A DNA stretch of 64,000 nucleotides, from positions 25,075 through 89,074 of the forward strand of contig JAHDCR010000004.1 in the NCBI GenBank assembly GCA_020629795.1, written 5' to 3'. Both the position numbers and the translations under genes were made by a program. How positions within the stretch are numbered: the stretch's first letter is position 1; every line of letters begins with the position of its first letter. The notes below the pieces were generated by a model. It was not told where the DNA came from. It ran no database searches and saw only the letters and a list, made by a program, of their open reading frames with translations. Origin of the DNA: Candidatus Altimarinota bacterium (GTDB taxonomy: Bacteria; Patescibacteriota; Gracilibacteria; BD1-5; UBA6164). Positions 1-64,000 of this stretch are shown here, in pieces.

Positions 1-2055
1 TGATGGACGACTGTTACTTTTGCAGGAGGCCCATATACTACTCCAGTTATAGTTGGTCGTAGCAATACTCATAATGATCCTGCTGAGGCTCTTGTATTTG
101 AATCTCGAAATTTGACGAGTACTACAGCGCAGGTGAGACTCTGTGATTCTCAGGCATCAAACGCAACTGATTGTGATACTCACGGGGTTGAAACAATATG
201 ATATATAGTAGTGGACGCAGCTCAAACGAGTAGTGTAGATTGAGTGGAAGCTGGAGTATTTTCTGCTGATGAATCATTTGATACGGTCGGATGATCAATT
301 ACAACAAGCTATGGAGAATCTTTTTCTCAAATACCTTATGTGTTTACATCTATTCAATCTACAAACGGAAGTAGTCCTATAGTAACGAGAGTGAGTGCCT
401 CGAGTATTTCAAATTTTACAGGATGAATATGTCAGCAACAATGATCAGAAGATGCTTGTAATGGGACTCATCCCACAGAAACCTTTGGGTGGATTGCAGT
501 TGATCCAAGCGTAAATCCATTTTTTAGACAAATGGATATCGGGACCTGAGTTTCTACTACACCATCTGATGTATGGTCTACAGCTGTTTTCTCAACGAGT
601 TTTGTCACTACACCAATTGCTATTTCTCAGACAGTAACAAATAATTGAGGTCAGGATGCACAGATTGATGAAATACAGAGTATTACTACTTCAGGGATGG
701 AGTTTAGGTCATGTGAGCTTGATAACGATGATGATTGTGATACTCATGCAATAGATGATATTAGATGGATGGCTATAGAGCAGGGAGTTTTTGCAGATGA
801 ATATGTTCTGGATAAAACGCATTATAGATGGTATGAAAATAATAATGCTAACACTCCAATCACTCCTTTAGCAGCTGAGAATTCTAAGCTTAATATTATT
901 CCGTGAAATAGGCAAGTTCGTCTCAGGATGCTAATACAAAATGGAGAACCAGAAGTTCCTGCCTGAGTACTGAGCTTAAAACTCCAATACGCAAACTCAG
1001 CGACATGTGAAACTGCCCCTAGTTGGACGGATGTATGAAGTCTCTGATGAGGAGAAGATTGGCTCATGTATGATAATGTATGAGTTACGGATTGAGCAAC
1101 GCTTACAAATTCTCTCTTGTTTGGATGAGGACACATACTCCAATCGTATAATGAATCTATCCCAACTATAAGTAATCCAAATGCAATACCTGTGAATCAA
1201 TGGGCAGAGTGGGATTTCTCACTCCGTAGAAACACTTTAGCATCAGGAAATCAGTATTGTTTTCGAGTGGTAACTGATAATGATAGCGAAATTGAGTATT
1301 CGAGTTATGCTATTATTGATACTACTGATACAGTGGTTCCTGTTATAAATTCTTATACTCCAGATACAGATAGTCTTATCCCAATTTGAAATTTTGAAAT
1401 AACTTATAATTATAGCGATGTAGACTCTGGTATTGATACAGATAGTGATATTATAACACTCCAAAGATGGGATGGAGCTACATGGTGAGCTAATATCGCA
1501 GGAACATATATATCACTTGATAATATATCCTCAACAGATGCTCTCTATAATGTTACAGGATTACCTTATGGACGTTATCAAGTAGGATTTCAAATATCAG
1601 ATAATGCATGAAATTCTGCTTTTGAGATTCATGAACTCTATGTGGATGAAGTCGAATTTATAATCTCTCAGGCAGAAGTAGAAATAGATACTATTTTTAC
1701 TGATAACACAAAATACACAAGCGACGATACTCTCACAGTTACGGTAAAAACTGTCGGTGCAGCATTTGATGTCGTTATGGAGCAAACAAGTGATATGAGT
1801 AATGCAGGGGAGATAATTCCAGACTGGGATTGAAGCAAAGGATTTTGATATGAAGAAGCTCCATTTGGTAGTGTAAATTCATTTGGATCTGGAGTTACTA
1901 TTGCTAGTGAAGTGAGAGATTTGAATATAAACGGAGAAAAATATAGCTATACTTATGACTTAAAATATTCAATTCTTTTAGATATGTTCGAGAGTTATGG
2001 AGCATGAGACTATCAGGCAAATTTAGATTTTCATATAGAGCTAGATTACAACTAG
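1..2055 (+). CDS. Large surface protein with lectin-like repeats, C-terminal part (5' end outside window)
   Basis: Frame 1 is open from the first base to TAG at 2053-2055 once UGA is read as Gly, giving 684 residues of a longer protein. The first ~280 residues hold three or more copies of a ~90-residue module. Each copy has Cys-rich DxCDTH/NGTH-like stretches and a hydrophobic GWIAVDP or GYIVVDA strand, which resembles the H-type lectin fold. After HYRWYENNN comes a different beta-rich domain, followed by Ig-like segments with VTVKTVGAAF-type strands. No C-terminal membrane anchor is visible. An extracellular adhesive role is an inference from the repeats and composition. Confidence 0.75.
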
Positions 2056-2065
2056 AAATTGATAA

Positions 2066-2111
2066 TTTTCCTAAAAAACATACACTGCAAGTATATAGTT
2101 TATTAGGAAAA
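2066..2111 (+). terminator. Imperfect hairpin between surface protein gene and rsmA
   Basis: TTTTCCTAA (2066-2074) pairs with TTAGGAAAA (2103-2111), with AAAC/GTTT extending the stem after one mismatch. It lies between the upstream TAG and the rsmA ATG at 2114, so it may end the upstream transcript or form an rsmA leader structure. Confidence 0.45.
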
Positions 2112-2113
2112 AA

Positions 2114-2926
2114 ATGAGTTTAGAAATCATACAAAAATATAAAATTCTGGCAAAGAAATCACTTGGTCAGAATTTTTTAGTGAACAGTGAGATTATAGAT
2201 GAAACAGTAAATATTATACCAGTTGCATGAAATAATATCATTGAAGTATGACCAGGGTATTGAGCTCTCACAGAAAAGTTATTAGAGCAAAAGCCAGCTT
2301 CACTTCATCTTGTTGAGCTTGATCGAGATATGATAGAAATCCTAGAAGATAGATTGCATTTATGAGAATTAAAATCTTGAGATGTAGATTTTAAAATTCA
2401 TAATCAAGATGTTTTAGATTTTATCCCTCAGTTTTGAGGGTATTCGGTGATAGCGAATATTCCATATTATATAACTTCACCAATTCTTAGGCATTTTCTC
2501 TATGACTTGGAAAATAAGCCTGAAAATATGATAATCCTCATGCAAAAAGATGTAGGAGATAAGATACTAGGAAAATGAAAAAATAAATCATCGGTCCTGA
2601 GTTTAATGATAGAGAAAAAATGTAGCGTATCTGAAGAAATATTTGTCGCAAAAGAAAATTTCATACCGGCTCCAAAAATAGAATCTTCAGTATTACTATT
2701 TGAAACTCATGAAAAATATAAAAATATTGATGATGAAAAATTTTTAGACATAATCAAGAAATGATTCCTTGCTCCTAGAAAAAAACTTATAAAAAATCTA
2801 GTGTCTTGATGATTTGATAGGTCTAAAATAGAAGAATATTTTTGTCAACAATGATATGATGAAAATTTAAGAGGGGAGGATTTAAATATTTTTCAGTGGT
2901 GTGAATTAGTTAAGAATCTCTATTAA
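2114..2926 (+). CDS. rsmA: 16S rRNA (adenine1518/1519-N6)-dimethyltransferase RsmA/KsgA
   Basis: The 270-aa product matches RsmA length. It dimethylates two adjacent adenines near the 3' end of 16S rRNA, using SAM, late in small-subunit assembly. Visible motifs are SLGQNFL near residue 16, the SAM-binding EVGPGYGALT at about 44-53, VELDRD as motif II and the catalytic NIPYYI at about 115-120. Two of the motif I glycines are encoded by UGA, so the protein is only intact under code 25. The ATG lies directly after the hairpin at the end of the preceding gene. The CGA in ELDRD sits at a position usually Arg in this family. Confidence 0.95.
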
Positions 2927-3044: not shown

Positions 3045-3875
3045 ATGTCAAATATAATAAAAAATAACCCAAAGATATCAGTAATTATGCCTGTCTATAA
3101 TACTGATAAATTTGTATGAGAGGCTATTGAAAGTATATTAAAGCAAAGCTTTAAAGATTTTGAATTTATTATAATTGATGATTGTTCTACAGACCAATCA
3201 TATCAAGTTTGTAACGAGTATGCAAAAAATGAATCGAGAATTAGACTGTATAGAAATAAAGAAAATATATGAATTAGTGAAACAAGAAATAAATTAATAG
3301 AATTATGTAAAGGTGAATTTATTGCTACTCAAGATAGTGATGATATATCAGTAAATAATAGATTAAAATTAAGTTTCGATTTTCTCATACAGAACCATGA
3401 CTATGCAGTAGTTTCTGGCAATAATATAATAGTAAACCAAGTATGAAAAACTATAGGGGCCAGAATATATAGTAACAATATAAAAAAAACTATACTTAAA
3501 AAATCCCCTGTTTCGCAACCATCAAGTATGTTTGTGAAAAATGTTTTTATTCAAGTTGGTTGATACGATAGGAGTATAAATTATGGAGAAGATTATGATC
3601 TATGGTTAAAAATATATTCAGTTGGATATAAAATAAAGAACTTAGATAAATTTTTAATTAAATACAGACTGCATGGTAATCAAACCAAATCTACTAAGTT
3701 AAGGCAAACATTAAAAAATACAATATTTATTCAAAAGAGAGCTATTAATAAATATAAAATAAAAGCGAGTTTATCTGATTATATCTATCTTTTCTTGGAA
3801 AAGTGTTTATTATTTTTACCAGAAAAATTTGTTTTATTCTTTTTTAAAAAAACAGCGTATAAAAATGCAAAATAA
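3045..3875 (+). CDS. Family 2 glycosyltransferase
   Basis: A 276-aa GT-A-fold enzyme that should transfer a sugar from a nucleotide-sugar donor to a growing surface glycan. The N-terminus shows the GT2 signature ISVIMPVYN. It is followed by IIIDDCSTDQS (nucleotide-binding Asp residues), the metal-binding QDSDD near residue 100, and GGYDRS...GEDYDLW as the acceptor/catalytic-base region. YRLHGNQTKS near the end is also typical. The stop overlaps the next glycosyltransferase start by 11 bases, so the two are probably translationally coupled. Donor and acceptor cannot be told from sequence. Confidence 0.88.
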
Positions 3876-4659
3876 AGAACTTAAGCTATCAATTCTTATT
3901 ACAACAATAAATGAGTGAATTTTTAGGGTTAAAAATGATTTACTTCCTCAATTGTTAGATGTAGATGAAATTATAATTTCTCATCAGATTACAAATAAAT
4001 CTATGAAATCTCAAAAAATAATATTTTGAGATAATACAAAGTACTATTCCATGTTTAAATCAGGATTGTCTAAAAATAGAAATAATGCTTTAAGACATGC
4101 AACGTGAGATATTTGCTACATTTGCGATGATGATCTCACAATTATGCCCAATTTTGCAGAGAATATTAGAAAAATTTTCCAGGATATAAATATAGACGTA
4201 GCAACATTTCAAGCAGTAGATGAATTGAATAACAAGCATTTTGAAGTTAATGAATGAAGGCATAATAACTTATCTATTTTAAAAGTATGGAGTTGGGGTA
4301 TTACTTTTAGAAGAAAAGTGGTTACTAGTAAGTGAATAAAATTTAATGAGAATTTTTGACTTTGAACCAAATACCCAGTTTGAGAAGAGAATATATTTTT
4401 ATCTTATTGTTTGAAAAAATGATTGTCTGTAATTCATACTGATAAGGTAATTGTTTTACATCCAAGGGAAAGTAGTAGTATCAGATATTCGAAAAATCTT
4501 ATAATTTGAAGAATTCAATTGTGGAAAGAATTATTTTGAGTATTTGGATGAATATTCGCTATTTTTTATTTTACTCTAAGTCATCATAAGTACTATAAAA
4601 ATGAATTTACGGTACTTAATTTTTTCTTTTTAAGTTGTAGCTGACTAAAGAATATATAA
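3865..4659 (+). CDS. GT2-like glycosyltransferase
   Basis: 264 aa, overlapping the upstream glycosyltransferase by 11 bases. The N-terminus LSILITTINEG and the central GLSKNRNNALRHATGD followed by CDDDL match the GT-A pattern in which an RN..A motif precedes the DxD-like metal site. A second acidic patch, YPVGEEN, resembles the ED region of GT2 enzymes. It is heavily dependent on UGA codons, with more than a dozen in frame. It lacks the canonical DDxSxD loop, so it is a divergent GT2 relative. Substrates are unknown. Confidence 0.75.
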
Positions 4660-4701
4660 AATAGACAGGGAAACATTATTTTTAAAAATATAGAACTTTA
4701 T

Positions 4702-5787
4702 ATGGATACACTCGTTAGCAAAAGATATAAATATGATGGAAAGATTCCTTTTTATTTTTCTAAAAAAAGAAAAAATAAGATTCGAGAATTTGAAGAAAAA
4801 AATTCATTAAGAAATAAAGACACGCAAGCTTGTTATGTGTGCTGATGAGAAAATTTTACTAAGTTGTGAGAAAAGGATAAGTATTGATTTTACTATCCTG
4901 TTGTTATTTGTCATACTTGTACCTTAGTGCAAACAAATCCATACTATTCTTGAGAAGAAGTAAATATTTTTTACTCAGATTACTTTAGGGAAGTATACAT
5001 GTGAGTTCCACGAACTCAGAAATATATTTTTGAAAATAATATTAAGAGAGGTGAAAAGGTAATTAATTTTATACAGAAAAATACTTGATTAAATGTGTCA
5101 TCAAAAAAAGTGCTGGACATTTGATGTGGTAACTGATGAATTCTAAAGGCATTTCAAAATAACTCTAATTTTTGTCTTTGAATCGATTTATGAAGTACGT
5201 ATTTTAATCTATGAGTTGAACAGTGATTAGATTTACGTCAATCTTCATTAAAATGACTTTTGGATTCATGATATAAGGAGCAATTTGATATTGTTGTTTT
5301 TTCACATAATTTAGAACATTTAATCAATCCAAAAGAGGAATTACAACTCCTAAAGAAAATTATACATAAAGACTCTATAGTTTTTATATCTGTTCCATGA
5401 CTCTTTTTTATGGAAAATAATAACTTTGATTATGTTGGAGAATATTTTCAAAATGCTCATAAATCTCATTTTACACTTTCAACACTTCAATACTTAATGA
5501 AATATGAGTGATATAAGCTTATTCATTGAGATGAAGAGATTCAATCAATATTTATGCTCGGTGATGATGTGCAAAAAGTCCTGACGAAATCAAGTGATGA
5601 AATTATTACTAGAATTAAGGACGTTGAATCTATTTATGTAGAGAGGTATAAGAAACTAATGTTTATAAAAATCGTATATTTTATTTTAGATAAACTATGA
5701 TTACGAATATTTACTCTTGCAGTGTTTAGAAAATTATGAATTACAAAATTTTTTAGAACTTTTCTTCTTTGAAAAGATGTATTATAA
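4702..5787 (+). CDS. Zinc-ribbon SAM-dependent methyltransferase
   Basis: A 361-aa protein combining an N-terminal zinc ribbon (Cys44-x2-Cys47 and Cys70-x2-Cys73) with a Rossmann methyltransferase domain whose SAM loop reads LDIGCGNGG at about 138-146. The sequence FDIVVFSHNLEHLINP is the usual motif IV region of class I methyltransferases. This architecture is common among sugar C- or O-methyltransferases in polysaccharide clusters, which fits the glycosyltransferases on both sides. The 3' end overlaps the next gene by 11 bases. Confidence 0.82.
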
Positions 5788-6691
5788 AACAATAGCATAT
5801 TTAATTCAAGCCCACGGAAATCCTTCTCATCTTTTAAAGCTTGTTACAAAGCTACAAAGTTTAGAAGTCGACTTTTTTATTCATGTAGATAAAAAAACTA
5901 ATATAGTTCCTTTTGAAGAAGAGCTTAAAGGTATTGATAATGTTTTTTTTGTTTCTGAACGTGTTTCTGTTGTTTGGAAATGATTTTCACAAGTTTTAGC
6001 TAGCCTTAACCTTATTACTTTAGCTTTGAATTCAAAGTATGAATACAAGTACTTTACTTTAATAAGTGGTGTAGACTATCCTATTATTTCTTCTCAGGAT
6101 ATTGTAGATTTTTTTGATTCTCAAACATATAATTTCTTAGAATATGAAGAAATAAAAGAATCTAAAAGCTACATAGATTATTTTAAGAATAAACAACTCT
6201 GGTTTAAAATTTCGAAATGGCATTACTATGACACTCTTAAAATTAACTGGTGATGTAATCAGTGAAGTTTTAAACATATGCTATATAGAGGATATATTTT
6301 TTTAAATATTTGTATTTTAAACATCTTTAGTAAGAAAAAAAATATTGATACAACTAAGAAATATTATTTTTGATCATCATGGTGGAGTTTAACAAAAGAA
6401 TCTATAGGGTATGTTTTGGATTACTCTAAAAAAAATCCAGAATTTAATATGTTTATGAAGTATTGTGATGCTTCTGATGAAATATATTTTCAAACTATCC
6501 TTTTAAACTCTCCATATAAAGATATTTGTGTGAATGATAACTTACGATACATAAATTGGAGTAAGGATAGAGAAGGCCCTGCTATATTAGTTGAAGATGA
6601 CTTTGAGGAAATAACGAAATCTTGAAAAATTTTCGCAAGAAAATTTTCTTCCGTAAGTAGAAAATTAATAGAAAGATTAAATAATCAATAA
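5777..6691 (+). CDS. GT14-like (core-2/I-branching) glycosyltransferase
   Basis: 304 aa. The start IAYLIQAHGNPSHL, the following FFIHVDKKTN and the later YFTLISGVDYPI and GSSWWSLTKE are hallmarks of the bacterial Branch (GT14) family. ASDEIYFQTILLNS resembles the family's C-terminal acidic motif. GT14 enzymes do not depend on a DxD metal site. It likely adds a branch or xylose/GlcNAc-type sugar to a surface glycan; the donor is unknown. It ends a four-gene overlapping run on the + strand and converges on a GT8 gene with only 4 bases between stops. Confidence 0.82.
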
Positions 6692-6695
6692 AAAT

Positions 6696-7595
6696 TTATC
6701 TATAGATTACTAGTTTATTTATTATTGATATAATTTTCTTTGGAATTATTTTATAGACTATATATATAAGTAAGTCTTTTTGGTTGATGTGTGGTTTTTT
6801 TATTGGGATAGAAAGTTCATTTACATACTTCCAAAATTTTTTTTGATAGTTTTTATGTATAATTGCTGGAGATATATAGAATAACTTTCCTCTTGATGCG
6901 TAATGATGTATAAAAGCGTTTTCGTCATATTTTTCATTCACAATAGAATTAAATTTATCTGAAATATATAATGTAGAAGAATTATAAGCTATATTTAATG
7001 CATCTTGATCAGCGAATATGTATTCATATTTTTTAAATACCTCGATGACATCAGACATAAGGGATCCTCGTATTTTTTTGAGGTTAACTATAAGTACTCA
7101 TGCATTTATATATGATTTTTTTTGCAATCAGAGATCACGTTCTTTTTTTCTTGAAAATGGAATGTATGGATCTAAAACTCATGCTATTGAATAACCGCTT
7201 ATGTCAGTATTTATATAATCTTCATAAAAATTTCTATGGATAATAGTATCAGTATCTAAATAAAGTAAATTTTCGACTGAAGTAGGTAATAGTTCACCAA
7301 AAAACAATCGTAAAAAAGTTCATGGATTCGCAGGAATACTTTTACTCATCATAAAACTCAAGTTTCTTTCTAATCTTTCAGGGAAAAATATAAAAGTTAT
7401 TTCAGTTTTATACTCTTTTACGATATTTTTAATAAATTCTAGATTTTCGGGATGAATTCTATAAATTATTATATATATGAGAATATTATTATTTGAGTGA
7501 TTACGCAACAAAGAAGTAAGAGATATTCATAAGAGAGATATCTGTTCTTTATTATGTAAACTCTTGTTGTCATTGAAACAATATACTATGTTCAT
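6696..7595 (-). CDS. Family 8 glycosyltransferase
   Basis: 299 aa. GT8 enzymes are retaining galactosyl- or glucosyltransferases of LPS and surface glycans. LLYLDTDTIIH at about 111-120 carries the DxD metal site. SGYSIAGVLDP, INAGVLIVNLKK and FADQDALNIAY follow in the family order. The ATG at 7595 overlaps the end of the upstream polysaccharide pyruvyl transferase-like gene by 10 bases, so both belong to one minus-strand operon. Convergent with the GT14 gene; this is the only convergent pair in the window without an evident hairpin. Confidence 0.88.
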
Positions 7596-8584
7596 GAGAG
7601 TCTATCTTTAATTTTTTTAATTTTTTCTATTTTTTCTTCCTCAAAATTAAGAGCTGATATTTTCCAGTCTATATTTTTAATTCATAACATATATTGAATA
7701 TTAAAATATATTTTGAGAAATACTGTGTATAATAAATCTCAAATAGTGAAACCGTACCGAACATTGATATTTAGTAGTGGAATTTTGCTAAGTGTAGGAC
7801 TTTTTCTTAAAAGGCCTAAGTGTCTTCTGCTCCAATGCACATAAGGGTGGATATCAATAAATCTTTGTTTTAAGCGCTTATTGTTTTCTCAAAACATAAT
7901 AACTGGTATTCACATAGCAATACACGGCATAGCACAATGAAATCTACTTGTAACTACTAATTTTGCATTATTTTTATAGTATTCTAAAATATCCTTAGAA
8001 ATAGAGAATTTAGTCTCATTAGATATAAATGGTCAATGCGAAATTACATGACTTAAATACTCGTAGTCTTTGGTTTTTTCTGGAGTAGGTGTATACTTAT
8101 CAACATCTACTAATATAATTTTTTTTGCATTTTTTTCTTGTTCTAATGTTCTTCTTTTTAATAAGAGAGTGATACATTCATTATTGATAGCTTGAATTCA
8201 ATGTTTTATAAAGATAGCTTCTGTATCTGCATCACGACAACCAATAGGTTCAAATTTTTTGAAATAGTCTATATTTTTTTTTGTAAAAAATTTTTCTTCG
8301 ACTTTTTTACTTTTTCAATAATCAAGCTCAAGGTGGAAATTATAAAATATTGGGGTTATACTTTTATGAAATGGAAAATTTTTCTCAAAATTATTATCTT
8401 CAAAACAAAAGAATCAATTTATAAATACTGTAATATTTTTTCATATTCCTTTATGTAGTTGATTTTGATCTATATTAGAAACTGAATATCATAAGTCTTC
8501 TAGTATTTCTTTTGTTACGTATGATTGTATATTATCACCAATATTGTTTGAATGATCATATCAGATAGTGTATATTTTTTTCAT
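7586..8584 (-). CDS. Polysaccharide pyruvyl transferase family protein
   Basis: 332 aa. The family transfers pyruvate ketals, or acts in related reactions, on exopolysaccharides and cell-wall polymers. The N-terminus is IYTIGYDHSNNIGDNIQS, with the GD..Q pattern of the family. EPIGCRDADTEAIF matches the IGxRD motif. The C-terminal signature TSRFHCAMPCIAMGIPVIMFG near residue 220 is diagnostic. Start and upstream stop overlap as TAATG, showing translational coupling to the flippase gene. The in-frame UGA codons disrupt it completely in the ORF track. Confidence 0.85.
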
Positions 8585-10080
8585 TATTTTTTTGTTAGAG
8601 AAAGGATAATTTTTTTATTGAGAAAAAAGTATATTCAGAACCATATTAATCATATTCAGCTAATGAACAAAAATACTATTAGACGATTTTCTAAAAGTAA
8701 ATATGGAGTTATGAATAAATGTATTAAAAATCAAAGAATTCAAAATAATCATATATGTTTTCCTAGAGATGAATAGTTTAATCATACTCGCATTTTCTCT
8801 CAGACATAAATTTCTGATAATACCCACATTATTATCCAAGATAATCATGTCATAATTGCAGCACCATATACTCATAAATATTGTATGAGTATATAGTTCC
8901 CAATTACATTTATAAATATTGTAAATATTATTATATAAAGCCTATTTTTTATCTTTCAAATCGTAGCTAAAATATTAAAATTGATTTGTAGTAAAAAATT
9001 AAATGTAAGTAATAGGATTGAATATTTTAGAATTTCTCAGGAGAGTAAAAAATTTTCTCAAAATAAAACATATGCAATATAAGTTGCAAATACAAAAAAG
9101 AATATGTTTAGAGAAATTCATAAACTACATGTAAAATCTTGTAGATTTTTCTTAATTTTAATTATATCTCTACTCTCTTTATTCTTAGAATATAGTTCAG
9201 AAAATACTGGTAATAAAAAAGCAAAAATAGGTGCTATGAGTATAAATGGTATACCAATAATACTAAGGTAATTTGTATAGTATCAAGCACTTTCTGTACC
9301 TAACAATACAATTATCATCTGCATATCAATTTGTGAGAGTATAGTTGAGGCTTGAGCTCATAAAAATACTATAAATGCATAAATAAATATATTTTTAAAT
9401 TCATCGAAATCTATCATAATTCTTTCAGACTTCAGGTAAATCTTATAATATTTATGATAGAAAATTATTCAGGATAATAAAAGTCAAATATACAATCAAA
9501 TTATCCATGCGTAGCTAAACTGGATAATAGTTCATTCACTAAAAAATAAAATTATTATTACTGAAAATAGTATAAAACATGATCTTACAAATTCCATAGA
9601 TTTCTGTAAAAAAGTATTTTGTACTGACAAGAAGAAATTATTTATTAATTGAAATGTGTTAATTCATAAAAAAAACATAGAAAATACTTTTATTATTTGT
9701 CATGAGATATTATTTTCAAAGTAGTGTTCTCATAGTATTTCTGATCAAAAAAAGAATATGCATGCAAGTGTTATACTAGTAAATCATTGTATGATAAAAG
9801 CTAATAAGAGAAGAGATTTTATTCTTGCGAATTCTTTTTTGTTGTAATATTTGGGTAGATAGAACAATAAGCTTTCTCTTATACCAAAGTCAGAAAATGA
9901 AGAGAGAAGAGTGATAAGACTTATTATTCCATATATAAGTCATATGTCTCATACGCTTAAATTTCCCGATAGTATAATTTTTACTATATATCCAATCGGA
10001 GCAATAATAAAACTGAATAAATAGAGCCAAAAACCCTTTTTTAAAAATTTTTCTCAGAGAGATGCATGTTGATCAATCAA
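8584..10080 (-). CDS. Oligosaccharide flippase (Wzx/MATE-like)
   Basis: A 498-aa polytopic membrane protein with the hydrophobic pattern of Wzx-type flippases, which move lipid-linked glycan units across the membrane. I walked the whole frame and found no TAA or TAG before the stop at 8584-8586. The segment GLIYGIISLITLLSSFSDFGIRESLLFYLPKY is characteristic of the family near the N-terminus. No ATG is in frame at the 5' end; TTG at 10080 is the best start, with ATT or ATA codons as alternatives. It lies just after the terminator of the malic enzyme gene and is coupled to the pyruvyl transferase-like gene by TAATG. Confidence 0.8.
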
Positions 10081-10119
10081 AATATGATATTTATCTATTA
10101 ATTGGAATTTAGTATATAC

Positions 10120-10155: not shown

Positions 10156-10166
10156 ATGTGTAAAAC

Positions 10167-16333: not shown

Positions 16334-17482
<1,149 letters not shown>

Positions 17483-34103: not shown

Positions 34104-34143
34104 TATAAAATAAAAACGAGCTTAGCTCGTTTTTATTTTATAT
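34103..34143. terminator. Bidirectional hairpin between the 909-aa gene and murC
   Basis: Perfect 19-bp arms around a TTA loop. That loop is itself the murC stop codon read on the minus strand (34122-34124). The + strand TAA (34101-34103) abuts the left arm. Confidence 0.92.
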
Positions 34144-35474
34144 CTCATATTATCTATATCTCAAGCTCAGAGTAATAGTATAATACTTGAGTTAGGATTT
34201 TCACTGTCATATTGATCTATAGTATGCAGTGTTTGATCAATTCCTTTTCCATCAAAGACATGTTCATGCTTAATACTATTTACTAATATTTTTGTAGTCA
34301 TTGCTGCTTTGTCCTCATCATTATCTCGAGATTCATATATATTTGGTATTATAAGTGTATCTGCGAGTGAAAAACATGTCGTAAATCAATCTAGGAGTTC
34401 AATAGTTCTGGAATATTGATGAGGCTGAAATACTACATATAATTTTTTATCTGGATATCCAGATTTTAGGGCTGAAAGTGTAGTCATTATTTCAGTAGGG
34501 TGATGGCCATAATCACTCATGAGAATATTTCAGTTTTTAGTCTCTCAAATCCTTTCCATTCGTCTCCATACTCCTGAATAATCTTCTAGTGTTTCTAAAG
34601 CTATAATTTCAGGAATCCCAATCATAAAACTTACTATATAAGCAAGTTTTGCATCATAGAGTATGTGTTCTCAGGGGATATGCATTACTATTTCTGGATA
34701 ATTTTCAATATTTGATTCATGATTTTCATTTGGAAATATTGTAGAAAAATTATCGTTTCGAGCTATGATGTAGTGAATATCTTTTCTTTTTCAAATAAGT
34801 GTTTTACAATTTGTATCTTCTCAGTTTATGACACAAAAACCTCAAGGAAGAATATTTTCTATAAATTTTTCGTATGCTTTTATATAACTTTCTGGAGTTT
34901 TAAAATAATCAGCATGATCATATTCTATATTTGTTATCATAACCACGCTTGGTTTGTATGCTAAAAAATGCTCCTTATATTCACAAGCTTCTATAGTAAA
35001 ATAATTTTGCTCTCATCTTGTGAAAAAATTTTTACCTCAAAACTCTTTTAATAAAGTTCAGATGACAGCACTAAAGTCCTCCTTTGAACTTTGTAATATT
35101 TGAGAAAGCATACTTGTCGTAGTAGATTTTCCATGAGTTCAGGCAACAGCAATTAACTTGTGAGTATTTACTATTTCAGCGAGTGCTAGATTGTATTTTA
35201 ATATTTTTATTCAAAGAGTTTGAGCTTTTGAGAGTTCTTTTTGTGATATAGGTACAGCTTCACTATATATGACACGCTCAAAATCATCAGTTATTCTATT
35301 AGCATCTGATCAAATGATAATGTTACATCACTCAGATATAAGCGAGTGAATAAGCTGTGAATCATTAGTATCGCTTCCAAAGACTTCGTATCAATTTGAC
35401 AGGTAATATCTTGCAAGTGCAGAGACTCAGATTCATCATATTCCTACGAGATATACTTTTTTTCTTTCATTCAT
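34122..35474 (-). CDS. murC: UDP-N-acetylmuramate--L-alanine ligase
   Basis: 450 aa. It adds the first amino acid to UDP-MurNAc in peptidoglycan synthesis, using ATP. The N-terminal Rossmann loop is VGIGGIGVSALA, with three of its glycines encoded by UGA. The ATP loop is [10 protein letters not shown] at about 111-120, and the C-terminal domain has YGHHPTEI and LLGAGDID. The presence of murC, PBP1A and an LCP ligase shows that the organism makes or at least modifies a peptidoglycan wall. The pth stop is 5 bases upstream of its ATG. Confidence 0.95.
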
Positions 35475-35479: not shown

Positions 35480-36001
35480 TTAGTTTTTTTTTAGTTCCTC
35501 TGAAATTTTATTATAGATTTCAGTATCAATATCTATTAATTCATCAGCTGTAAATTTTGATAGTACCCAGTCTGATACGTTATATTTTCAAGCTTCTCAA
35601 ACTCATACTTTTATTCGAGTCCAATCTGATTTAAAGTGCTGGATAATACTTTTTACCCCATTGTGTCATCAAGCACTTCCTGTTTCTCTCACTCTTATTT
35701 TTCAAAATTGCATAGATATATCATCATAAATGACAATAAAGTCATCTGCAGTTAGTTTATAAAAATTACATATTTTCACGAGTGACTCTCATGAGAGATT
35801 CATGAAAGTTTGAGGTTTTACTAACATAATTTTTTCACCTCCTAATATCCCTGAACATATTTCTGCTGTAAATTTACTTTCATACTTCCAATCGGAAAAT
35901 CAATTTTCTTGAGAAAATTTATCCAAGAAAATAAAACCGAGATTATGACGAGTCTCTCGATATTTGTCACCAGGATTTCAAAGTCCTACTATGAGTTTCA
36001 T
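35480..36001 (-). CDS. pth: Peptidyl-tRNA hydrolase
   Basis: 173 aa. It releases peptides from prematurely dissociated peptidyl-tRNA. The N-terminus [21 protein letters not shown] contains the catalytic His19 and Asn. [27 protein letters not shown] and GSAGGHNGVKSI complete the family pattern. The middle Gly of GLGNPG is a UGA codon. It is co-directional with murC at 5 bases. Confidence 0.95.
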
Positions 36002-36062
36002 AATTTGCAAAAAATACTACTAGAATTACGAGTAGTATAATCAAAAAAATAAAAGCTGAAAG

Positions 36063-42225: not shown

Positions 42226-42600
42226 ATGATTGAACGGAAAAATAGGCATTGGTCATCTCTACTAGGACCACTTTTACAGCCAACAGAGTGTAATTCATCA
42301 CAGAAAGGACTTAGTGGAGATAAACATAAAAAAATGATGACTGCTATGATTAGTTTTCGAAAACATCAGATTACAGATGAAGCAAGAAGACTTATTCCAA
42401 CTCAGTCACTTGAGAGGCTAGATGCTTTTCTTATGTTGCAGGCAAAAATTCTAATGCCATATATAGAAGAATTTTATCCTGAAGGTCTTAGTGATTATCC
42501 TGAAGTTGTTACTGCTCTTAATGGGTGAAATAAAACTTCAAAAAAAGTAAACCAGCCTAATTCGGGGCTGGTTTTAAGTTTTATCGATTCATCTATTTAA
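42226..42600 (+). CDS. Small protein of unknown function; UGA sits where a stop would be expected
   Basis: Under code 25 the frame gives 124 aa, ending at TAA 42598-42600. The first 100 residues (MIERKNRHWSSLLGPLL...) are basic and helical and contain five glycines, none encoded by UGA. The only in-frame UGA is codon 101 (42526-42528), followed by a terminator-like hairpin. Reading on makes the last 24 residues run through the hairpin and overlap the clpC stop antisense. The natural product may therefore be 100 aa, or the tail may be a recent readthrough extension. Family unknown. Confidence 0.6.
42549..42574. terminator. Hairpin between the 42226 gene and clpC
   Basis: AAACCAGCC pairs with GGCTGGTTT around an 8-base loop, followed by a short T run on each strand. 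It lies 19 bases past the clpC stop on the minus strand. Confidence 0.75.
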
Positions 42601-45166
42601 CGATAATCCCATCCTTACTTGCTGTAAGTGTAAACTTTTTCTTTGTAGATGAAGAGAGGATTTGTTCTGCTATTTGATCTTCTATTTGGTTTGTGAGATA
42701 TCTACGTATCTCTCTCGCACCAAACTCTGGATTATATACATCGCGAGCAATTCGCGTTATAACTTTTGCATCATACTCTAGCTCCATTCATTTTTCGTCT
42801 ATTCTTGTTGCGAACTTTTCTAATAGTAATTTTACTATTTTCTTAATAGCAATTTTATCAAGAGGATTAAACACTATTATATTGTCTATTCTGTTTATGA
42901 ACTCTGGAGAAAAATATTCTGGAAGAGATTCTTTTATTCGTGCTTTTGCTGCATCATAATCTCACAGTATTTTTTCCTCTTCGCTTTCAGAAATGGTGAA
43001 ACCTATTTGAGCTGCTTTTTCACTAAACTCGTCCTGACCAATATTTGAGGTCATAATAATTATTGTATTTTTGAAGTTAATTTTTCTTCATTTATTGTCA
43101 GTAAGAACTCATTCTTCTAAAATTTGAAGTAGGAGATTATATACTTCTATATCTCATTTTTCAATTTCATCAAAGAGAATAATTGAATAAGGTTTTTTTC
43201 TAACTTTTTCTGTCAGTAAACCACCTTCTTCATATCCGACATATCCAGCTGATGCTCAGATGAGTTTATTTGCTCCAGTTTTATCAGAGTATTCTGACAT
43301 ATCGATTTTAATAAGTGCATCTTCGTCACCATAGTATTCTCTTGCGAGAACTTTTACTATTTCAGTTTTTCAAACTCAAGTTGGTCCTAAAAATAGAAAA
43401 CTTCCAAGTGGTCTATGTGGTTCACCAATACCTGTTTTGTTTCTAATTATTGATTTAGAAATAGCAGAAATAGCGTCATCCTGAGCAATGATATTTTTTT
43501 TCATTTGAGTAGGAAGCTTTTTGAGTCTGTCTATCTCATTTTTAGATAGATTCGCAACTGGCACTCCAGTAGTGATTGACAGAACTTTGTGGATATCTTC
43601 TGCTTTTACCCAGAAACGCTTATCTTTCGGTATTGAAAATTTCTTTTTTAGTGAGCTGATTTCTGATTCAAGTTTCTTTTGTGTTTCTTTAAATGCAACG
43701 GCTTTTTTATACTGTTGAGAAATTACAGCATCTTCTATTTTTTTAGCATTTTTTGCCATTTTTTCCTTAATCTTTGTGATCTCTTTCTCATCATAATTGT
43801 ATTTCATAGATTTGAGAGAACAGGCTTCATCGATGAGATCTATTGCCTTATCTGGTAGTTGTCTATCTGTTATATATCTGATTGAGAGCTCTACTGCTTG
43901 CTCGATAGCTTCATCTGAAATATTGAGATTGTGATATTCTTCAAAAATTTCTTTGAGACCTGATATTATTTCTGTTGCTGTTTTTTTATCTGGTTCTCCA
44001 GCTACTATTTTTTGAAATCTTCTCTCTAGTGCTGGATCTTTTTCAATGTATTTTTGGTATTCATTATTAGTAGTAGCTCCTATAACTCTAATTTTTCATC
44101 TCCCCATTGCTGGTTTAAGAATATTTGAGGCATCGAGACTTCACTCTCCACTTCCTGCTCCAATTATGGTATGAATTTCATCTATAAAGAGGAGAACTTC
44201 ATTTTCGACTTTGCTCGCTTCATCGATAACTTGTTTAATACGAGATTCAAACTCACCTCTAAACTTGGTTCCTGCTACAAGTGTAGACATATCAAGTGAG
44301 AGTATGCGTTTATCTTTCATAGAAAATGGAACTTCTCCATTTGCAATTTTGAGAGCAAGTCACTCCACAATTGCTGTTTTACCAACTCAAGCTTCTCACA
44401 CTAAACAAGGGTTGTTTTTAGTTTTTCTGTTAAGTATTCAAATAAGTCTTTCAATTTCAACTTCTCTCCCGATAATTTTATCAATTTTACCATTTCTAGC
44501 TTCAGCTGTTAAATCATTTGAAAAGAAATCTAGTGCGGGAGTGCTCGATTCTATTTTTTCATTTTTTTGACTTGTATTAACATCAAAAGGAACTGATCCT
44601 GACTCATCTCACATAGCTCCATCTAAACTAGAAAATATATTTTCTGCGAGATTTCCAAATAGTTTTTCAATTGATTCGTCACTTTTTTTGTCTCATGCTT
44701 TTTGAGTACTCACACCATCAATCGTACCAAGCTTAAAAAGGTCAGATATGTTGGTCTCGAGGTCGCTAGGATTGATACCAATATATTCTAAGTAGCTTGC
44801 TAGCCAAGTATCATTCATGAGGAGTGACATCAATAAGTCTTCGAGTGTGGCTCGCGCTTTAGTGTTTTGAGCTGCGATTTTGACACTTCAAAGTATAATA
44901 TCTTTACATTTTTGATTCATTCCACTGTAGACTCCTTTTCTCTTTGAGGGAGCTGTGTTGAAAAGTGCTTTATTTATAATTTCAAGAGTGAGTTTTTTAT
45001 CAATTCCGTAGAGAGTAAGGATTTCGAGTATTCATCCATGAGCAGTTTCTAAAAGCTCTAAAAATATATCCTCTGGTCTAAGGTCTTTGAAGCCTACTTC
45101 TCGAGCTTTATTCTCAGCATTTATGAGAGTTTTTTTATATCCGTCAGAAAAATTGTTGTACACCAT
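42593..45166 (-). CDS. clpC: ATP-dependent Clp protease ATP-binding subunit, ClpC type
   Basis: 857 aa, class I Hsp100. The N-terminal Clp-N domain is followed by AAA+ domain 1 (Walker A GEAGVGKT, Walker B LLFIDEIH), a short middle coiled coil ([19 protein letters not shown]) and AAA+ domain 2 (Walker A GPTGVGKT, Walker B ILFDEIEK). Glycines in both Walker A motifs are written as UGA. It unfolds substrates for a ClpP-type protease; clpP is not in the window. The short central coil favours ClpC over ClpB. Confidence 0.93.
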
Positions 45167-50564: not shown

Positions 50565-50733
50565 GTATTTTTGTTAGATATTTTGAGCGTGCAAACTATA
50601 TAAACTATTCTGATTTTTTCAAGTAAAAAACACCGATTCTTCACTGTATTTTTTGCTAAAATTTTCTATATTCATACACTTCTTTAACATGTGAGGAATA
50701 GTATCCTTTCTATTATATTGTAAAAATAATTAT

Positions 50734-51309
50734 ATGAAACACGAACTAATGGAATTACCATATGATAAAAATTCTTTAGAGCCTTTTATGTCACAAGAAA
50801 CTCTAGAATTTCATTATGGAAAACACCACAATGCTTATGTCACAACTCTTAATACACTTATAGAATCAACAGAGTTTGAAGATAAAACTCTAGAAGAGAT
50901 TATTACTTCATCTGAAGGGAAAATTTTTAATAACGCAGCTCAAATTTGGAATCACAACCTGTTTTGGAATACACTCAGAGTAAATGATGGTTCAAAACCA
51001 GAATGAAAACTAGCTGAGATGATAGGATCGAGTTTTGGAAGCTTTGAGGATATGAAAGAAAAATTTAAAGCTGAGTCACTCGGAAGATTTGGTTCTGGTT
51101 GGGTATGGCTGGTTCAAAAAGATGATAGATTAGAGATATATTCTACACCAAATGCTGAAAATCCTCTGACAGAATGAGGAACAGCTCTACTAGGGTGTGA
51201 TGTATGGGAACACTCATACTATATTGATACTCGAAACGATAGAGGCCAATACATCGAAAACTTTTGGAATATAGTTGATTGGGATGTAGTTGCTGGAAGA
51301 ATAATATAA
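50734..51309 (+). CDS. sodB: Superoxide dismutase, iron type
   Basis: 191 aa, cytoplasmic (no signal). Metal ligands are His27 in FHYGKHH, His in WNHNLFW, and Asp and His in [11 protein letters not shown]. The [10 protein letters not shown] stretch, with Gln rather than Gly-His, favours the iron type over manganese. CGA in DTRNDR lies at the conserved basic position and so reads as Arg. Few UGA codons are used. It is monocistronic and ends in a palindromic terminator. Together with Bcp it shows some defence against oxygen. Confidence 0.93.
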
Positions 51310-52752: not shown

Positions 52753-52755
52753 ATT

Positions 52756-54529: not shown

Positions 54530-54531
54530 AA

Positions 54532-55536
54532 ATGAATATATTTCTATTACAAAATTTAGAGAGACCATGGGTATTTGTTATTCTTATATTTGTACTCGTT
54601 GTATCTGTAGCTTTAGTATTTTTAAAACCCAAGAATACTAATTTTACTGAAATACACTTGCTGCGACAGGTCTATCAGAAAAATACTATTTGGCAGTTTA
54701 TATTTACGCTGAGTATTTGTGTAATAAGTATTTGTAGTATTTTAATCTTATCTGGATTGTATGGAAATTTAGAAAAGCAAACAATAAAAAAAGAGGGGAT
54801 AGATATTCAAATTGTGTTGGATCTCAGTTACTCTATGATTGCAGAAGATATAAAACCTCGTAGAATAGATGCTGCTAAAGAAATGCTAGGAAAGTTTATT
54901 TGAGAAATTAATTCAGATAGAATTGGTATTATACTTTTTTCTGGTAAACCATTTCAATCTGTTCCATTAACATTTGATTATGATTTTTTACAAGATTTTA
55001 TAGAGGAAATAAGTGTAGATACCGTTGCGCAATCTACAAATATAGAGCTAGCTGGAACAGCGCTATGAGATGGACTAGTTCTTGCTAGTGACGTGCTATC
55101 AAGAGATTATCCTGAGAGAGAAAAAGTAATTATTCTTATAACAGATGGTGAGGCAAACAAATGAGTAGAACCTGAGTTAGCACTTCGTCTCTTAAAGCAA
55201 GAGGGGATTAAAACTTATACTATTTGAGTAGGGAAATGAGAAGATACGACTATTACTATTCCTATTGGAAATTTTGTCCAGAGAATATTAGTATCAGGAG
55301 TAGATGAGGAAATACTTCAAAAAATAAGTAACGAAACATGAGCCGCATATTATAGAGCTGACAGTAGTGATTCATTTCAAAAAATACTTGAAACGATAGC
55401 TCAGCTAGAAAAGACGGATCTTGAGTATGAAGTATATACAACTAAAAAAACTAAAAACATACAAATTTTACTGATTCTATTTATTTCACTATTACCACTG
55501 TGTTATATCTACTTTTATAAAAAAATTACTATTTAA
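54532..55536 (+). CDS. BatA-like VWA-domain membrane protein
   Basis: 334 aa. Two N-terminal membrane helices precede a von Willebrand A domain with an intact MIDAS: VLDLSYSM (DxSxS), a Thr in VAQSTNIELAGTALGDGL, and ITDGEAN (Asp). A third helix (IQILLILFISLLPLCYIYFY) is at the C-terminus. This is the BatA layout. Its stop overlaps the next ATG as TAATG, so the two VWA proteins are made together. Confidence 0.9.
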
Positions 55537-56345
55537 TGCAGAAAATTCATATACATATTTGGCAAAAAATACTTCTGGTTGTAAGTGTTTTCTTTGTCGT
55601 TTTGAGTTTAGTATATGAGCTATATTATAGTTCAAACATGAGTTTTCCTGAGGGGGAAAATAATATAGTATTTTCTCTGGATGTATCTCAAAGCATGAAT
55701 GTACTAGATATGTGAAACTACTCAAGACTCGATGCTGCAAAGAGAAAAATTATTGATATTATTCGTGAAAATCCTGAGAATAGCTACGCGCTCAATATTT
55801 TTGCTGGAGAATCTATGAGAATATTACCGTTTACGAATGATATAGGATTGATTTCAACTTTTCTCCTTTGACTTGATAGTCGTAATATTACAAAACAATG
55901 AAGTGATATACCATGAGCACTGAGTCAAGCCTATGAAAGTTTTAATGAGCTACAGAGTTGAAAAGTCATACTCTTAACTGATGGGAGCGATGAGAGTATA
56001 GATATAGATAATTCTATAAAGAAAAACTATAAAACTCAACAGATAGATCTTATAATTTTGTGAGTCTGAAGCTCAACTGGTTGATATATACCTTCTGAAA
56101 GTCCTCTAAGTCCATATAAAATGTATAATGGTAGTAGAGTCGTAAGTAGCTTAAATGCGAAGTGATTACGAGATATAGCTGAGGATATGGATGCAGAGTA
56201 TATCAACATGCAGGAGTATAATAATTACCAATCACTGTATTCTAAAAATACTTCATCAAATTTTCCTTTTGTTTTTCTCCTATTTGTACTAAGCTGGTCT
56301 GCCTATCTAGCACTCTTATATAGAAATATATTTTTAAAAATATAA
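55536..56345 (+). CDS. BatB-like VWA-domain membrane protein
   Basis: 269 aa. One N-terminal helix (ILLVVSVFFVVLSLVYEL) and one C-terminal helix (FPFVFLLFVLSWSAYLALLY) flank a VWA domain with FSLDVSQSM as its MIDAS start and ILLTDGSDES as its second Asp. It is shorter than the preceding VWA protein and is translationally coupled to it (TAATG). The pair probably forms a hetero-oligomer acting with MoxR. Confidence 0.88.
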
Positions 56346-56349
56346 AATT

Positions 56350-57033
56350 ATGAAATATAAAATCATCATACCAATTTTATTCTTAGCTTTGTTGTTAGGT
56401 ATGTTTTGAGTTTCTAAATATCTAAGATATTTAGATTTCGTAAATCTTTATACTAGTGAAAATTTTACCGAAATATTAGAAAATCAAACACTTCAATCAC
56501 CAGAAATGTTGCATAATTATGGACTTACTGCATTAGAACAGTTTAAAAAAGACGGTATGCAAAATATAGATAATCTCATTGAATCAAACAAATTATTTTC
56601 ATGAAGTTTACAAAAACAAGAGCACGAAAAAACGAGATTTCAATATGAGTTTACAAAGGCTTTACTAGATTTATTTAAACAACAACAAAAACAACAAGAA
56701 CAGAATCAAGATCAACAATCACAAGAAACTGATCAATGAGATACTGGTGAAGCTTGAGATGAAAGCCAACAGTGAGAGTGATGAGAAGATGAAAACTCTA
56801 CGTCACAATCTCAAAACGGACGAGAGAGTCAGTATTATTTAAATCAGTGAGAAGAGATAAAACCACTGAGTGAATGAGAACAAAAAAAATTAGATCAAAG
56901 TATTGAAAAGCTGAAATCAGACCAAATGAATAATCAGCAGTATTATGGAAAACAGCAGCAATTGACACCTTTTCAAGAAGCTTTTGATAGTGTATTTTGA
57001 ACTGTTGATAGATGAGGTGAAAAAGACTGGTAA
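56350..57033 (+). CDS. Membrane-anchored Gln-rich protein, BatC-like
   Basis: 227 aa. An N-terminal helix ([17 protein letters not shown]) is followed by a short helical domain ([31 protein letters not shown]) that could hold a TPR unit. A long low-complexity tract rich in Gln, Glu and Gly ([16 protein letters not shown]) follows. BatC proteins of other bacteria have the same TPR plus polar tail plan, so this is the probable counterpart. It is the last gene of the MoxR run and ends at a hairpin. Confidence 0.7.
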
Positions 57034-57084: not shown

Positions 57085-57402
57085 TTACATACCGTTACCA
57101 AGTCCATTCATCATATCACCCATACCCATTCCTTGCATAACTCCTTGCATTTTTTCTCCTGCTACTTCTTGAGCTTTTTTCATTCCTTTATTTACTGCCT
57201 GAGCAATTGCCTTTTCTAGAGCAGCTTTATCTCCAATAAGTGTATCTGTTTCAAACTCTACTTTTTCAACTTTCATTTCACCATTTACAGTCACTACAAG
57301 ACCGTCAACTTCAGCTTCTATGAGTGTATTTTCAAGTTCTTTTTTTACTTTCATTGCCTCTTGTTGAAGCTTCATGAGTTCACCTGCTTTACTAAAATCC
57401 AT
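57085..57402 (-). CDS. ybaB: Nucleoid-associated protein YbaB/EbfC
   Basis: 105 aa, the standard length. It is a small homodimeric DNA-binding protein. Features are MDFSKAGELMKLQQEAMKVKKELENT, then VTVNGEMKVEKVEFE, and a Gly/Met-rich end (GMGMGDMMNGLGNGM). None of its roughly 14 glycines uses UGA, unlike most genes here. That fits high expression. It probably starts a transcript of its own. Confidence 0.93.
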   Translation of the reverse strand: MDFSKAGELMKLQQEAMKVKKELENTLIEAEVDGLVVTVNGEMKVEKVEFETDTLIGDKAALEKAIAQAVNKGMKKAQEVAGEKMQGVMQGMGMGDMMNGLGNGM

Positions 57403-57542: not shown

Positions 57543-58340
57543 ATGGCTACTGCTACAAAACAAGATGATGATTTACTCATCATTGCAGACGAAGAATCTA
57601 GCTCTGATTCTAGTGGAGATATTGAATTTTCATTTGATTTTGGAGAAGATACTTCAACAAAAGAATCTACAACAGTAAGTTCAGGTACTACAAGTGACAC
57701 TGCTGAACTCAAAACTGAAGATACTTTAGAGTCTATGCCTGAAGTATCTATTGTAGAAGAAACACCACTGAGCGAAACAGCTAGCATTTCAGAAGTAGAT
57801 CTCACTAGTGATGTAGATACTCCTGAAATCTCTCTGGGTATGGATGACGCAGCTACAGAAACTCCAGTAGTTGATACTAAACCAGTTGAAAATTCTGTAA
57901 ATGAAGATTTTTCTTTTGATCTGTCTGAATCAAATATAGATACTGAAGTAGTTTCTACAAGTATAGAAGAAACTACCAATAACTGAAAAGAATCAATTTT
58001 AGCAGAAGAATCAGTACTAGTACAAGAAACTCCTAAAGAGGTTGAGGTATCAATTGATGCAAGCAGTGAAGCATCTATGAATGATATTCTCTCAGCTACA
58101 ATTGCTAAATTAGCTGCTAGACAAGAATTGATTGCTACAAGTAAAGCAGGAAAATCTACTAAAGAAGAAGAAATTAAAGCACAAATTAAAGAGTTACAAT
58201 CACAAGTTTCTGAGCTTGAGGCTGAAATGAAAGAACTTGATAAAGAATCAGATAAAATTACAGCAAATATTACAGAGCTTGAAAATATGAAGCTTGATCC
58301 AGTGAAAGAACATAACTCAAAAAGAGTTACGAAGAAATAA
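57543..58340 (+). CDS. Acidic disordered protein with C-terminal coiled coil
   Basis: 265 aa. The first ~160 residues are very acidic and Ser/Thr-rich (DEESSSDSSGDIEFSFDFGED). The last ~90 form a coiled coil (KEEEIKAQIKELQSQVSELEAEMKELDKESD) with a basic tail. There is no signal or membrane segment. Only one UGA codon interrupts it in the ORF track. Family unknown; the acidic arm plus coiled coil suggests a structural or DNA/RNA-associated partner. The 281-aa ORF on the opposite strand is a mirror artefact of its composition. Confidence 0.8.
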
Positions 58341-60358: not shown

Positions 60359-60362
60359 ACTA

Positions 60363-60956: not shown

Positions 60957-60963
60957 ATTTTGT

Positions 60964-61158
60964 TTAAAAAGTTATATGCATAGCGTATAAGAAAAAGAGA
61001 CACCATCAGATTGCTAAACCAATAGGAATAGAGAATATGAAATATAATATGTCATTGAAATTCCATTCCCAAAAATTTTTAGTTGCAGGAGCACATAGTT
61101 TTATAATAATAAAAACTCATATAACTGGTAAATAAATAATAAAATATTCTAGCATCAT
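60964..61158 (-). CDS. Tiny two-helix membrane protein (64 aa)
   Basis: Not in the supplied ORF track, because it is short and contains UGA codons. Two consecutive ATGs (61158, 61155) directly follow the ileS stop. Two hydrophobic helices are visible (YFIIYLPVIGVFIIIKL and ILYFIFSIPIGLAIGWCLFFLYAM), separated by a short Trp-containing loop. The frame is closed by TAA. The exact abutment with ileS and the 7-base gap to the next gene support it as real. Function unknown. Confidence 0.62.
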
Positions 61159-64000
61159 TTACTTCTTAATAATTATTTTCGCAGTTGTTTCTCAGAGCTC
61201 TATTTCTTTTTCAATATCTCAAGCAGTGAGAGATGTATCAAGAGTTGAGAGCGTTTCAGAAGTTATATCATAACTTGCGAGAATTGCCTCTAGCTCGTTA
61301 GTAACAATATTTAGGGAGATTCTATCATTCACTTCATATCCAGCCTCTTTTCGAGCCTCTTGTACGTGTCTCACGATATCACGAGCATATCCCTCAAGCC
61401 TTAATTCGTCTGTGAGCTCTAAGTCCATAGAGATAACCATTCCAAATCCTGATTCTATATTATCAGATTCTCCCTCTGTCATAAATGCGATTTCAAAATC
61501 ATCACCTTCGAGAATAAATTCTCATACTTTAACAGTATTTTCATCAATTTCTTCAAAGTTCCCAGATTTAGCCTGCGTCATAATTTCTTTCACATCTTTT
61601 CCAAATTTTGGACCGATGAGACGACCATTTGGTTTACAGATTTTCTGTGCTATGGTGCTTGAGTCTACCACGAGAACCTCTTTTACATTGAGCTCTTCCT
61701 TGATGATATCTTTATAATAATCAGAGAGGTTTTCTCCGATAGAAATAGAGCGAAGAGGCTGACGTACTCTCATTTTTGTATTTGTTCTCAGAGAGAGTCA
61801 AAGATTAATAATCTTTTGGCAGAGGTCCATGTCTTCGTTGAGTTTTTCATCAATCAGAGCAGTATCTGCAACAGGAAAGTCTGATAAATGAACTGATTCG
61901 TTCCCAGTTAAATTCTTATACATTTCTTCCGTGATAAACGGCATAAACGGAGCAACTACTTGAGAAAGAGTTACAAGTACCTCGTAGAGCGTTTCATATG
62001 CTTCGAGCTTGTCTCCATCATTTTCAGATTTCCAGAAACGTTTTCTCGATCTTCTGATGTACCAGTTTGTGAGGTTATCCATAAATTTCACGATAGGACG
62101 TGTCGCGTCGGTAATCTCGTATGTTTCCATCCCTTTTGTAACATCTGCTACGAGTTTATGTGTTTCAGATATCATCCATACATCGAGAGGGTTATTTCTC
62201 TCAGATTTTCCAGTTGGAGTGAAGTTATCAATATTTGCGTAGGTCGTGAAGAAGCTATAGGTATTCCACATAGGAAGAATAACTTTTTTAATCACTTCCA
62301 CTATTCCTTCTTCTTTGAAATCCATATTTCCACCATTGAGCAGAGGAGAGTTTGCCATATAGAATCTAATTGCGTCAGCTCCGTATTTTTTGATAGTTTC
62401 TTTTGGATCTGGGTAGTTTCCGTATGACTTAGACATTTTTCGTCCATCTGAACCCATCACGATACCAGTTGTGATAACGTTTGTGAAACTTCTCTTGTCA
62501 AAGAGTGCTACACCAACTACGTGCATCACATAGAACCAGGCTCGTACTTGACCGATATACTCAACGATAAAGTCAGCTGGATATGAGTTCTCCATTGGAG
62601 CTTTGTTTTCAAATGGGTAGTGCATTTGCGCGTATGGCATAGACCCAGAATCCATCCACACGTCGAGTACTTCTGGGAGACGAGTATAGGTCACATCACC
62701 CTCTTTCCACGTGATGTCATCAATAAATGGTCGGTGTAAATCTGTAACTTTCATACCTGAAGCATCTTCGATTTCTTTTTTACTTCCAAAGACCTTCATA
62801 TCTACTTCGTTTCACTCGCTGTCAGTTCCAATCCAAATAGGCATAGGAGTCCCCCAATAACGAGTACGAGAAATACACCAATCTGGTGCTGACTCTACTG
62901 ATTTGAGGAATTGACCATGTTTGAGATGGTTAGGTTGCCAGTTGATTCCTTCGTTTTCAGCTAATAGTCTATCCTTCATTTCCTGGATATTGATAAACCA
63001 AGAGTCCTGCGCTTTATAAATAAGCTTTGTCCCTGATCGTGGACACATCGCAACTCTATGGTTAATAGACTCTTTTTTAAAGAGGAGTCCAAGCTCTTTG
63101 AGCTTTTCAGCTACGATATCGTTTGCATCCTGATAATGCATCCCTTCGTAATCTGGGATTTCCTCTGTATAGCATCCAGCATCATCGAGAGCTGTTGAGA
63201 TATGTACTCACTCTTTTTGGGCAAGTTGAAAATCGACTTCACCAAACTCAGGAGCTTGGTGTCCAATACCGGTACCGTCTGTGTCAGTGATAAAGTCTGC
63301 GTGAAGTATTTTATGATTTTTCTCAGCATCGACTTTTCCAACATAGAAATCAAAGGGAGGAGTATACTTGAGTCCGATTAAGTCCTCACCCATAAAGCTT
63401 TCAAGGATTTCGTATTCTCGACCTTTAAATACCGTCTCTACTCTGGCAGTTGCGAGAATATATACTTTGTCTTCTGACTCTACTCGTGAGTAAGAAAGAT
63501 TTTTATTGAGAGCCATACTCATATGAGCCGGGATAGTCCATGGAGTGGTTGTCCACGCGATGATATAATCACCTGCTTGTACGTGTTTGTGTGACTCAGT
63601 AAGAGGGAACATCACCGTAACAGCTGGGTCAGATACTTCTTCATACGAATCATCCATTGCAACCTCAAAGTTTGAGATAGGAGTTGAGAGTTTCCATGAG
63701 TAGAGTGATACTCTTCGACCTTTATATACTCGTCCTTTTTCGTGCATTTGTTTAAAGACCCAAAGAACAGATTCCATATAATCTTGGTCCATAGTTCGAT
63801 ACGCATTATCCGTATCTACCCATCGTCCGATATGGTCAATATACCAATCCCACTCTGAAGAAACCTCTTTTGTATAGGTATAACACTCCTCTATAAACTT
63901 TTCGACTCCAAGAGCTTCAATATCAGCATTAGACTTAAGATCGAGTTTCTTTTGTACTTTTTCCTCAATAGGCAGACCATGACAGTCCCAACCCCATTTA
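61159..64000 (-). CDS. ileS: Isoleucyl-tRNA synthetase (N-terminus outside window)
   Basis: About 946 residues are in the window; the start lies beyond 64000. The enzyme charges tRNA-Ile. Visible are WGWDCHGLPIE (HIGH-region neighbour at the window edge), the editing-domain stretch around TTTPWTIPAHMSMALN, KMSKSYGNYPDP (KMSKS loop) and the anticodon-binding part NWYIRRSRKRFW. It uses only about six UGA codons in this length, far fewer than neighbouring genes. The stop TAA abuts the next ATG. Confidence 0.95.

Follow-up and report, generated by a model that had tools for sequence, protein, structure and literature searches.

The window, as we call the whole stretch of DNA analysed here (1..64000), corresponds to C20:25075-89074 of a 22-contig genome of 1,107,941 bases (1.108 Mb) that is 95% complete. 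Read in translation table 25, it holds about 52 genes. RsmA/KsgA (2114..2926, plus strand) is followed by an AT-rich surface-glycan locus (3045-10326) with glycosyltransferases, a methyltransferase, a polysaccharide pyruvyl transferase and a flippase-like gene. Tgt (16334..17482), MurC (34122..35474), peptidyl-tRNA hydrolase (Pth, 35480..36010) and a Clp-family AAA+ ATPase (42593..45166) all lie on the minus strand. Further along are an Fe/Mn superoxide dismutase (50653..51309, plus), whose glycines are seldom coded by UGA (3 of 16), and a Bat-type operon (51814-57033, plus), in which MoxR, DUF58, BatD-like and two VWA genes stand in a row. The small protein encoded at 57085..57402 (minus), which we take by eye to resemble the YbaB nucleoid protein, uses UGA at none of its 13 glycines. 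Next to it, a 265-aa acidic, Ser/Thr/Glu-rich protein with a coiled-coil-like end (57543-58340, plus) contains one UGA and matched no Pfam family. The isoleucyl-tRNA synthetase (IleRS, 61159..63999, minus), whose 5' end lies beyond the window, has UGA at 6 of 58 glycines. A scan of the window detected no Rfam family and no tRNA.

Reading frames, motifs and gene ends

With the standard stops, four stop-to-stop runs of at least 200 codons exist in the window; with UGA read as sense there are 50 (21,675 codons), 31 of them with at least 300 codons and the longest with 1,348. Opening TAG instead yields 4 runs of at least 200 codons, opening TAA yields 8, and shuffled sequence gives a mean of 0.05. 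Since these controls produce so few, the long frames are not a by-product of dropping any stop codon. A sequence-only reading of this DNA had held that UGA is glycine across the whole window and that this recoding alters every gene model. The second claim is borne out by the four long frames left under the standard code against 50, and in practice a standard-code annotation would break the window up. MAG assemblies can contain frameshifts, which would leave room for explaining the long UGA-bearing frames as degraded genes or assembly errors. The frames, however, stay open for more than 1,300 codons with TAA and TAG excluded, and UGA swaps with GGN between relatives; we give this explanation a negligible probability.

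All six motifs that had been named as carrying UGA at core glycines were located, with their UGA codons confirmed. The two Walker A loops of the Clp-family ATPase, GEAGVGKT and GPTGVGKT, hold two each (D1, 44396-44398 and 44387-44389; D2, 43376-43378 and 43370-43372). This protein had been called ClpC; its UGA-bearing loops stand as described, but it scores below all curated ClpA/ClpB cut-offs and is better termed a Clp-family ATPase. RsmA has two UGA codons in EVGPGYG (2249-2251 and 2261-2263), MurC three in GIGGIG (35436-35438, 35433-35435 and 35427-35429), Tgt one in DSGGF (17204-17206) and Pth one in GLGNPG (35978-35980).

Within 49 gene models picked by codon score, 708 UGA codons stand beside 649 GGN glycine codons, so that UGA supplies 708/1357 (52%) of the glycine codons in the window. 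Forty-three of the models end in TAA and six in TAG. These ends are partly forced by the way table-25 frames are drawn, and termination was therefore tested independently on outgroup C-termini. Among 94 conserved genes with an aligned outgroup C-terminus, 83 meet TAA or TAG within 10 codons, at a median distance of 2 codons. No convincing UGA stop was found in these 94 genes; the sole two candidates run on into a further domain, as domain fusions. Thus, of the earlier claim of 53 genes all ending in TAA or TAG, the ends hold, but the count is about 52.

The meaning of UGA and of the other codons

The genome was analysed as stretches totalling about 1.02 Mb, and the codon tests covered the window together with the first 716 kb of these stretches. 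As standard-code references we used 1.2 Mb from three RF2-carrying Patescibacteria, two of the same class (G162, G121) and one of the same phylum (G124). For each codon, the outgroup residue opposite it was tallied, with UGA masked as X in the alignment so that no residue was favoured. A first tally had placed UGA opposite Cys or Trp, an artefact of antisense frames that vanished once overlapping frames had been removed; the final tally excludes them.

Against the standard-code Patescibacteria, 655 of the 963 UGA positions aligned genome-wide face Gly, with Ala as the runner-up (54). Gly is favoured over the next residue by a log10 likelihood ratio of 619 in the genome stretches; in the window genes alone, where 76 of 105 UGA positions face Gly, the ratio is 71. 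UGA sites match Gly about as often as GGA sites do (68% and 70%). The check proposed by the sequence-only reading, retranslation in table 25 followed by alignment, therefore supports its claim for the window: the motifs are intact, and UGA did not fall at non-glycine conserved columns, one of the outcomes named in advance as refuting the claim.

Tryptophan was the obvious competitor, as UGA = Trp (table 4, as in Mycoplasma) is the commonest bacterial recoding of this codon and long open reading frames alone would look identical under it. However, UGA aligns in the outgroups with Gly, not with Trp, and all ten proteins that were rescanned with UGA as Trp lose Pfam score. The transpeptidase drops from 119.1 to 75.6 bits, the Clp-family ATPase (AAA_2) from 204.4 to 177.5, Tgt (TGT family) from 507.7 to 445.5 and Pth from 199.0 to 160.0. 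We regard table 4 as highly improbable.

All other codons that could be tested genome-wide are standard. ATG and TGG lie outside this test, because a single-codon residue keeps no profile once its own codon is held out, and for the window alone a handful of rare codons, each aligned at 4-6 positions, carry no information. An extended code, in which UGA is Gly and both CGA and CGG are Trp, has been described for the sister group Absconditabacteria, and CGG is read as Trp in some Gracilibacteria (PMC8629427). In the present genome, though, CGA faces Arg at 135 of 229 positions and the rare CGG at 14 of 21, and the tRNA with anticodon UCG is arginine-type (A73, A20). Since CGA and CGG are both Arg, the code is plain table 25; the extended code is very unlikely.

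UGA and GGN interchange among close relatives. In seven relatives, 38 of 41 cells aligned with UGA codons of the window IleRS are GGN or UGA. At the one RF1 column where most outgroups have Glu, a GGN-coded Gly occurs in several relatives in the order. Most relatives of the window IleRS, which share 74-88% identity with it, carry the name Candidatus Gracilibacteria. Some Gracilibacteria IleRS frames (L250, L286, L301) exceed that of the window by up to about 360 codons.

Release factors and a tRNA with anticodon UCA

The sequence-only reading had predicted that prfB (RF2) would be absent and that a tRNA with anticodon UCA would exist elsewhere in the genome, and both predictions came true. A single class-I release factor was found in the 95%-complete assembly. 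It passes the prfA cut-off (474.8 bits; cut-off 423.25) and fails that of prfB (286.8 bits; cut-off 370), and its gene (L001:877-1953) itself holds 7 UGA codons. The absence of RF2 rests on this 95%-complete genome together with its relatives. Among 60 genomes searched in the order, 52 have exactly one class-I factor, 7 have none and one has two, whereas each of the eight class members sampled outside the order has an RF2 above the cut-off. The genome with two factors (G022; 2.7 Mb in 500 contigs, assigned to the organism's family) carries a UGA-rich RF1; the contig that holds its RF2 (C153:10152-10478, L028) is free of UGA, and this RF2 is probably contamination.

Two features of RF1 were considered on their own. 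The tripeptide PET was rejected as a mark of the recoding: it occurs in 24 of 29 sequences of the order but also in 8 of 29 from standard-code Patescibacteria. The residue just before the RSQ motif is Gly, not Glu, in about half of the order; in standard-code RF1 it is Glu in 24 of 27, Gly in 1 and Gln in 2.

ARAGORN, applied one locus at a time, identified a 79-nt tRNA with anticodon UCA outside the window (C13:28328-28406, L216, minus strand). Its acceptor has G1:C72, C2:G71, G3:C70 and U73, which are the glycine identity criteria (PMC8629427). The tRNA-Trp has a CCA anticodon and a 5-bp anticodon stem, in line with what the 2026 paper on superwobble expects of genomes like this one (PMC13092985); with the glycine elements of tRNA(UCA), this also argues against UGA = tryptophan. 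The program labels tRNA(UCA) as tRNA-SeC, based on the anticodon alone, and this label is what might suggest that UGA is selenocysteine, or a site of programmed readthrough, in some genes. The tRNA, however, lacks a long variable arm, SelA was absent in a search of the genome, and UGA accounts for half of all glycine codons in the window. Such a reading is extremely improbable, even less likely than table 4.

The arms of tRNA(UCA) are unusual, and its T-loop reads TTCAAAC. The anticodon stem appears to have 6 bp, the 10-nt D-loop lacks adjacent G18G19 and the variable loop has 4 nt; this architecture is nearly invariant across the order. Of the 60 order genomes, 52 hold a full-length copy, and none of the eight class genomes with RF2 does. 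In 21 distinct sequences from 49 genomes, 99.4% of cells are paired, seven pairs show compensatory change, and neither any slid version nor any of 500 shuffles scores as high in covariation. The CUUCAAC loop is invariant, and so are the acceptor identity pairs and the outer two anticodon-stem pairs (C-G and U.G); for these outer pairs, the sequences are consistent with a stem of six pairs but offer no independent proof. In the literature that we searched, with Campbell 2013 outside that search, there is no description of this architecture, and we claim no novelty for it.

The partner tRNA-Gly(UCC) was not found in the assembly, only in a single-contig relative (G024), where it is canonical by inspection. 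The tRNAs for Ser, Pro, Asn and Ile were likewise not found in the 95%-complete assembly (G000). We rejected the idea that this is a biological oddity: since most of these five tRNAs lie in two tRNA clusters in G024, assembly gaps are the likelier cause.

What the codon means, which release factors are present, and the tRNA, its fold and its conservation are observations of this analysis. We conclude, with a probability of roughly 98%, that the organism is a Gracilibacteria-type patescibacterium that uses translation table 25, in which UGA means glycine throughout the genome and translation stops at UAA and UAG only. In the mechanism that we propose, RF2, the releaser at UGA, has been lost, and RF1 takes care of UAA and UAG. 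UGA would be read on the ribosome by the dedicated tRNA(UCA), presumably charged by the dimeric-type GlyRS that the genome contains. Since tRNA(UCA) is present and RF2 lost inside the order, with the reverse in the sampled class neighbours, the boundary between order and class places the switch on the tree.

Uneven use of UGA and comparison with known codes

The share of UGA differs between genes. UGA makes up 13 of 235 glycine codons (5.5%) in the genes for ribosomal proteins and elongation factors, versus 1,582 of 4,583 (34.5%) in the other conserved genes (Fisher p 1.6e-25). Its share drops as codon adaptation rises (Spearman -0.43, p 2e-8; reference genes left out), and the drop is concentrated in the top codon-adaptation quartile (15% vs 41-42%). 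Conserved glycine sites use UGA slightly less often than other glycine sites of the same gene, a modest effect (Mantel-Haenszel odds ratio 0.79; permutation p 0.014). The low UGA share of the window IleRS recurs in its seven close relatives; recent gene transfer was rejected as its cause, as Gracilibacteria homologues up to 88% identical are also low. No description of UGA avoidance in ribosomal-protein and elongation-factor genes was found in the literature searched, again with Campbell 2013 outside the search.

To judge from codon counts, the uneven use would fit selection for speed or accuracy. Because genes for ribosomal proteins and elongation factors largely avoid UGA, we infer that, among glycine codons, it is a slower or less favoured one. 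We suggest only tentatively, at rather less than even odds, that the tRNA is structurally specialised (the 6-bp stem with U.G, no G18G19, CUUCAAC) and no simple anticodon mutant of tRNA-Gly(UCC). GGN codons may be decoded more efficiently or accurately than UGA is by this tRNA, and translational selection may so keep UGA from highly expressed genes and, slightly, from conserved glycine sites. UGA is disfavoured in genes of the translation apparatus despite supplying half of the window's glycine codons; together with the odd fold of the decoder, this would offer an entry to how a captured stop codon settles in a genome.

The recoding itself is already known, as the sequence-only reading had noted. 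Code 25 was reportedly predicted in Gracilibacteria/BD1-5 by Wrighton in 2012 and by Rinke in 2013. Hanke and co-workers verified it proteomically in 2014, detecting by mass spectrometry 97 peptides unique to the UGA = Gly translation in a BD1-5 relative (PMC4032931), and the loss of prfB was stated for BD1-5 genomes by Sieber and co-workers in 2019 (PMC6851277). The present genome is another of that group, with an identical code: it shares UGA as glycine, the absence of prfB, the presence of prfA and low GC, shows every table-25 feature that could be tested and adds no new code. Since the Gracilibacteria code is established and proteomically validated, the discovery value is small.

The code of Absconditabacteria/SR1, which Campbell is said to have reported in 2013, likewise has UGA read as Gly by tRNA-Gly(UCA). 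There, CGA and CGG are also read as Trp (Shulgina & Eddy 2021, PMC8629427), whereas both are Arg here. In the table 4 of Mycoplasma and Hodgkinia, RF2 is also lost and a tRNA with a UCA anticodon takes UGA, but the amino acid is Trp there and Gly here. In architecture only, tRNA(UCA) recalls tRNA-Pyl, which has a 6-bp anticodon stem and has lost G18G19 (PMC7609411). The two differ in anticodon and amino acid, and unlike tRNA-Pyl, tRNA(UCA) keeps a full-size D-loop, a two-base 8-9 linker and a TTC T-loop.
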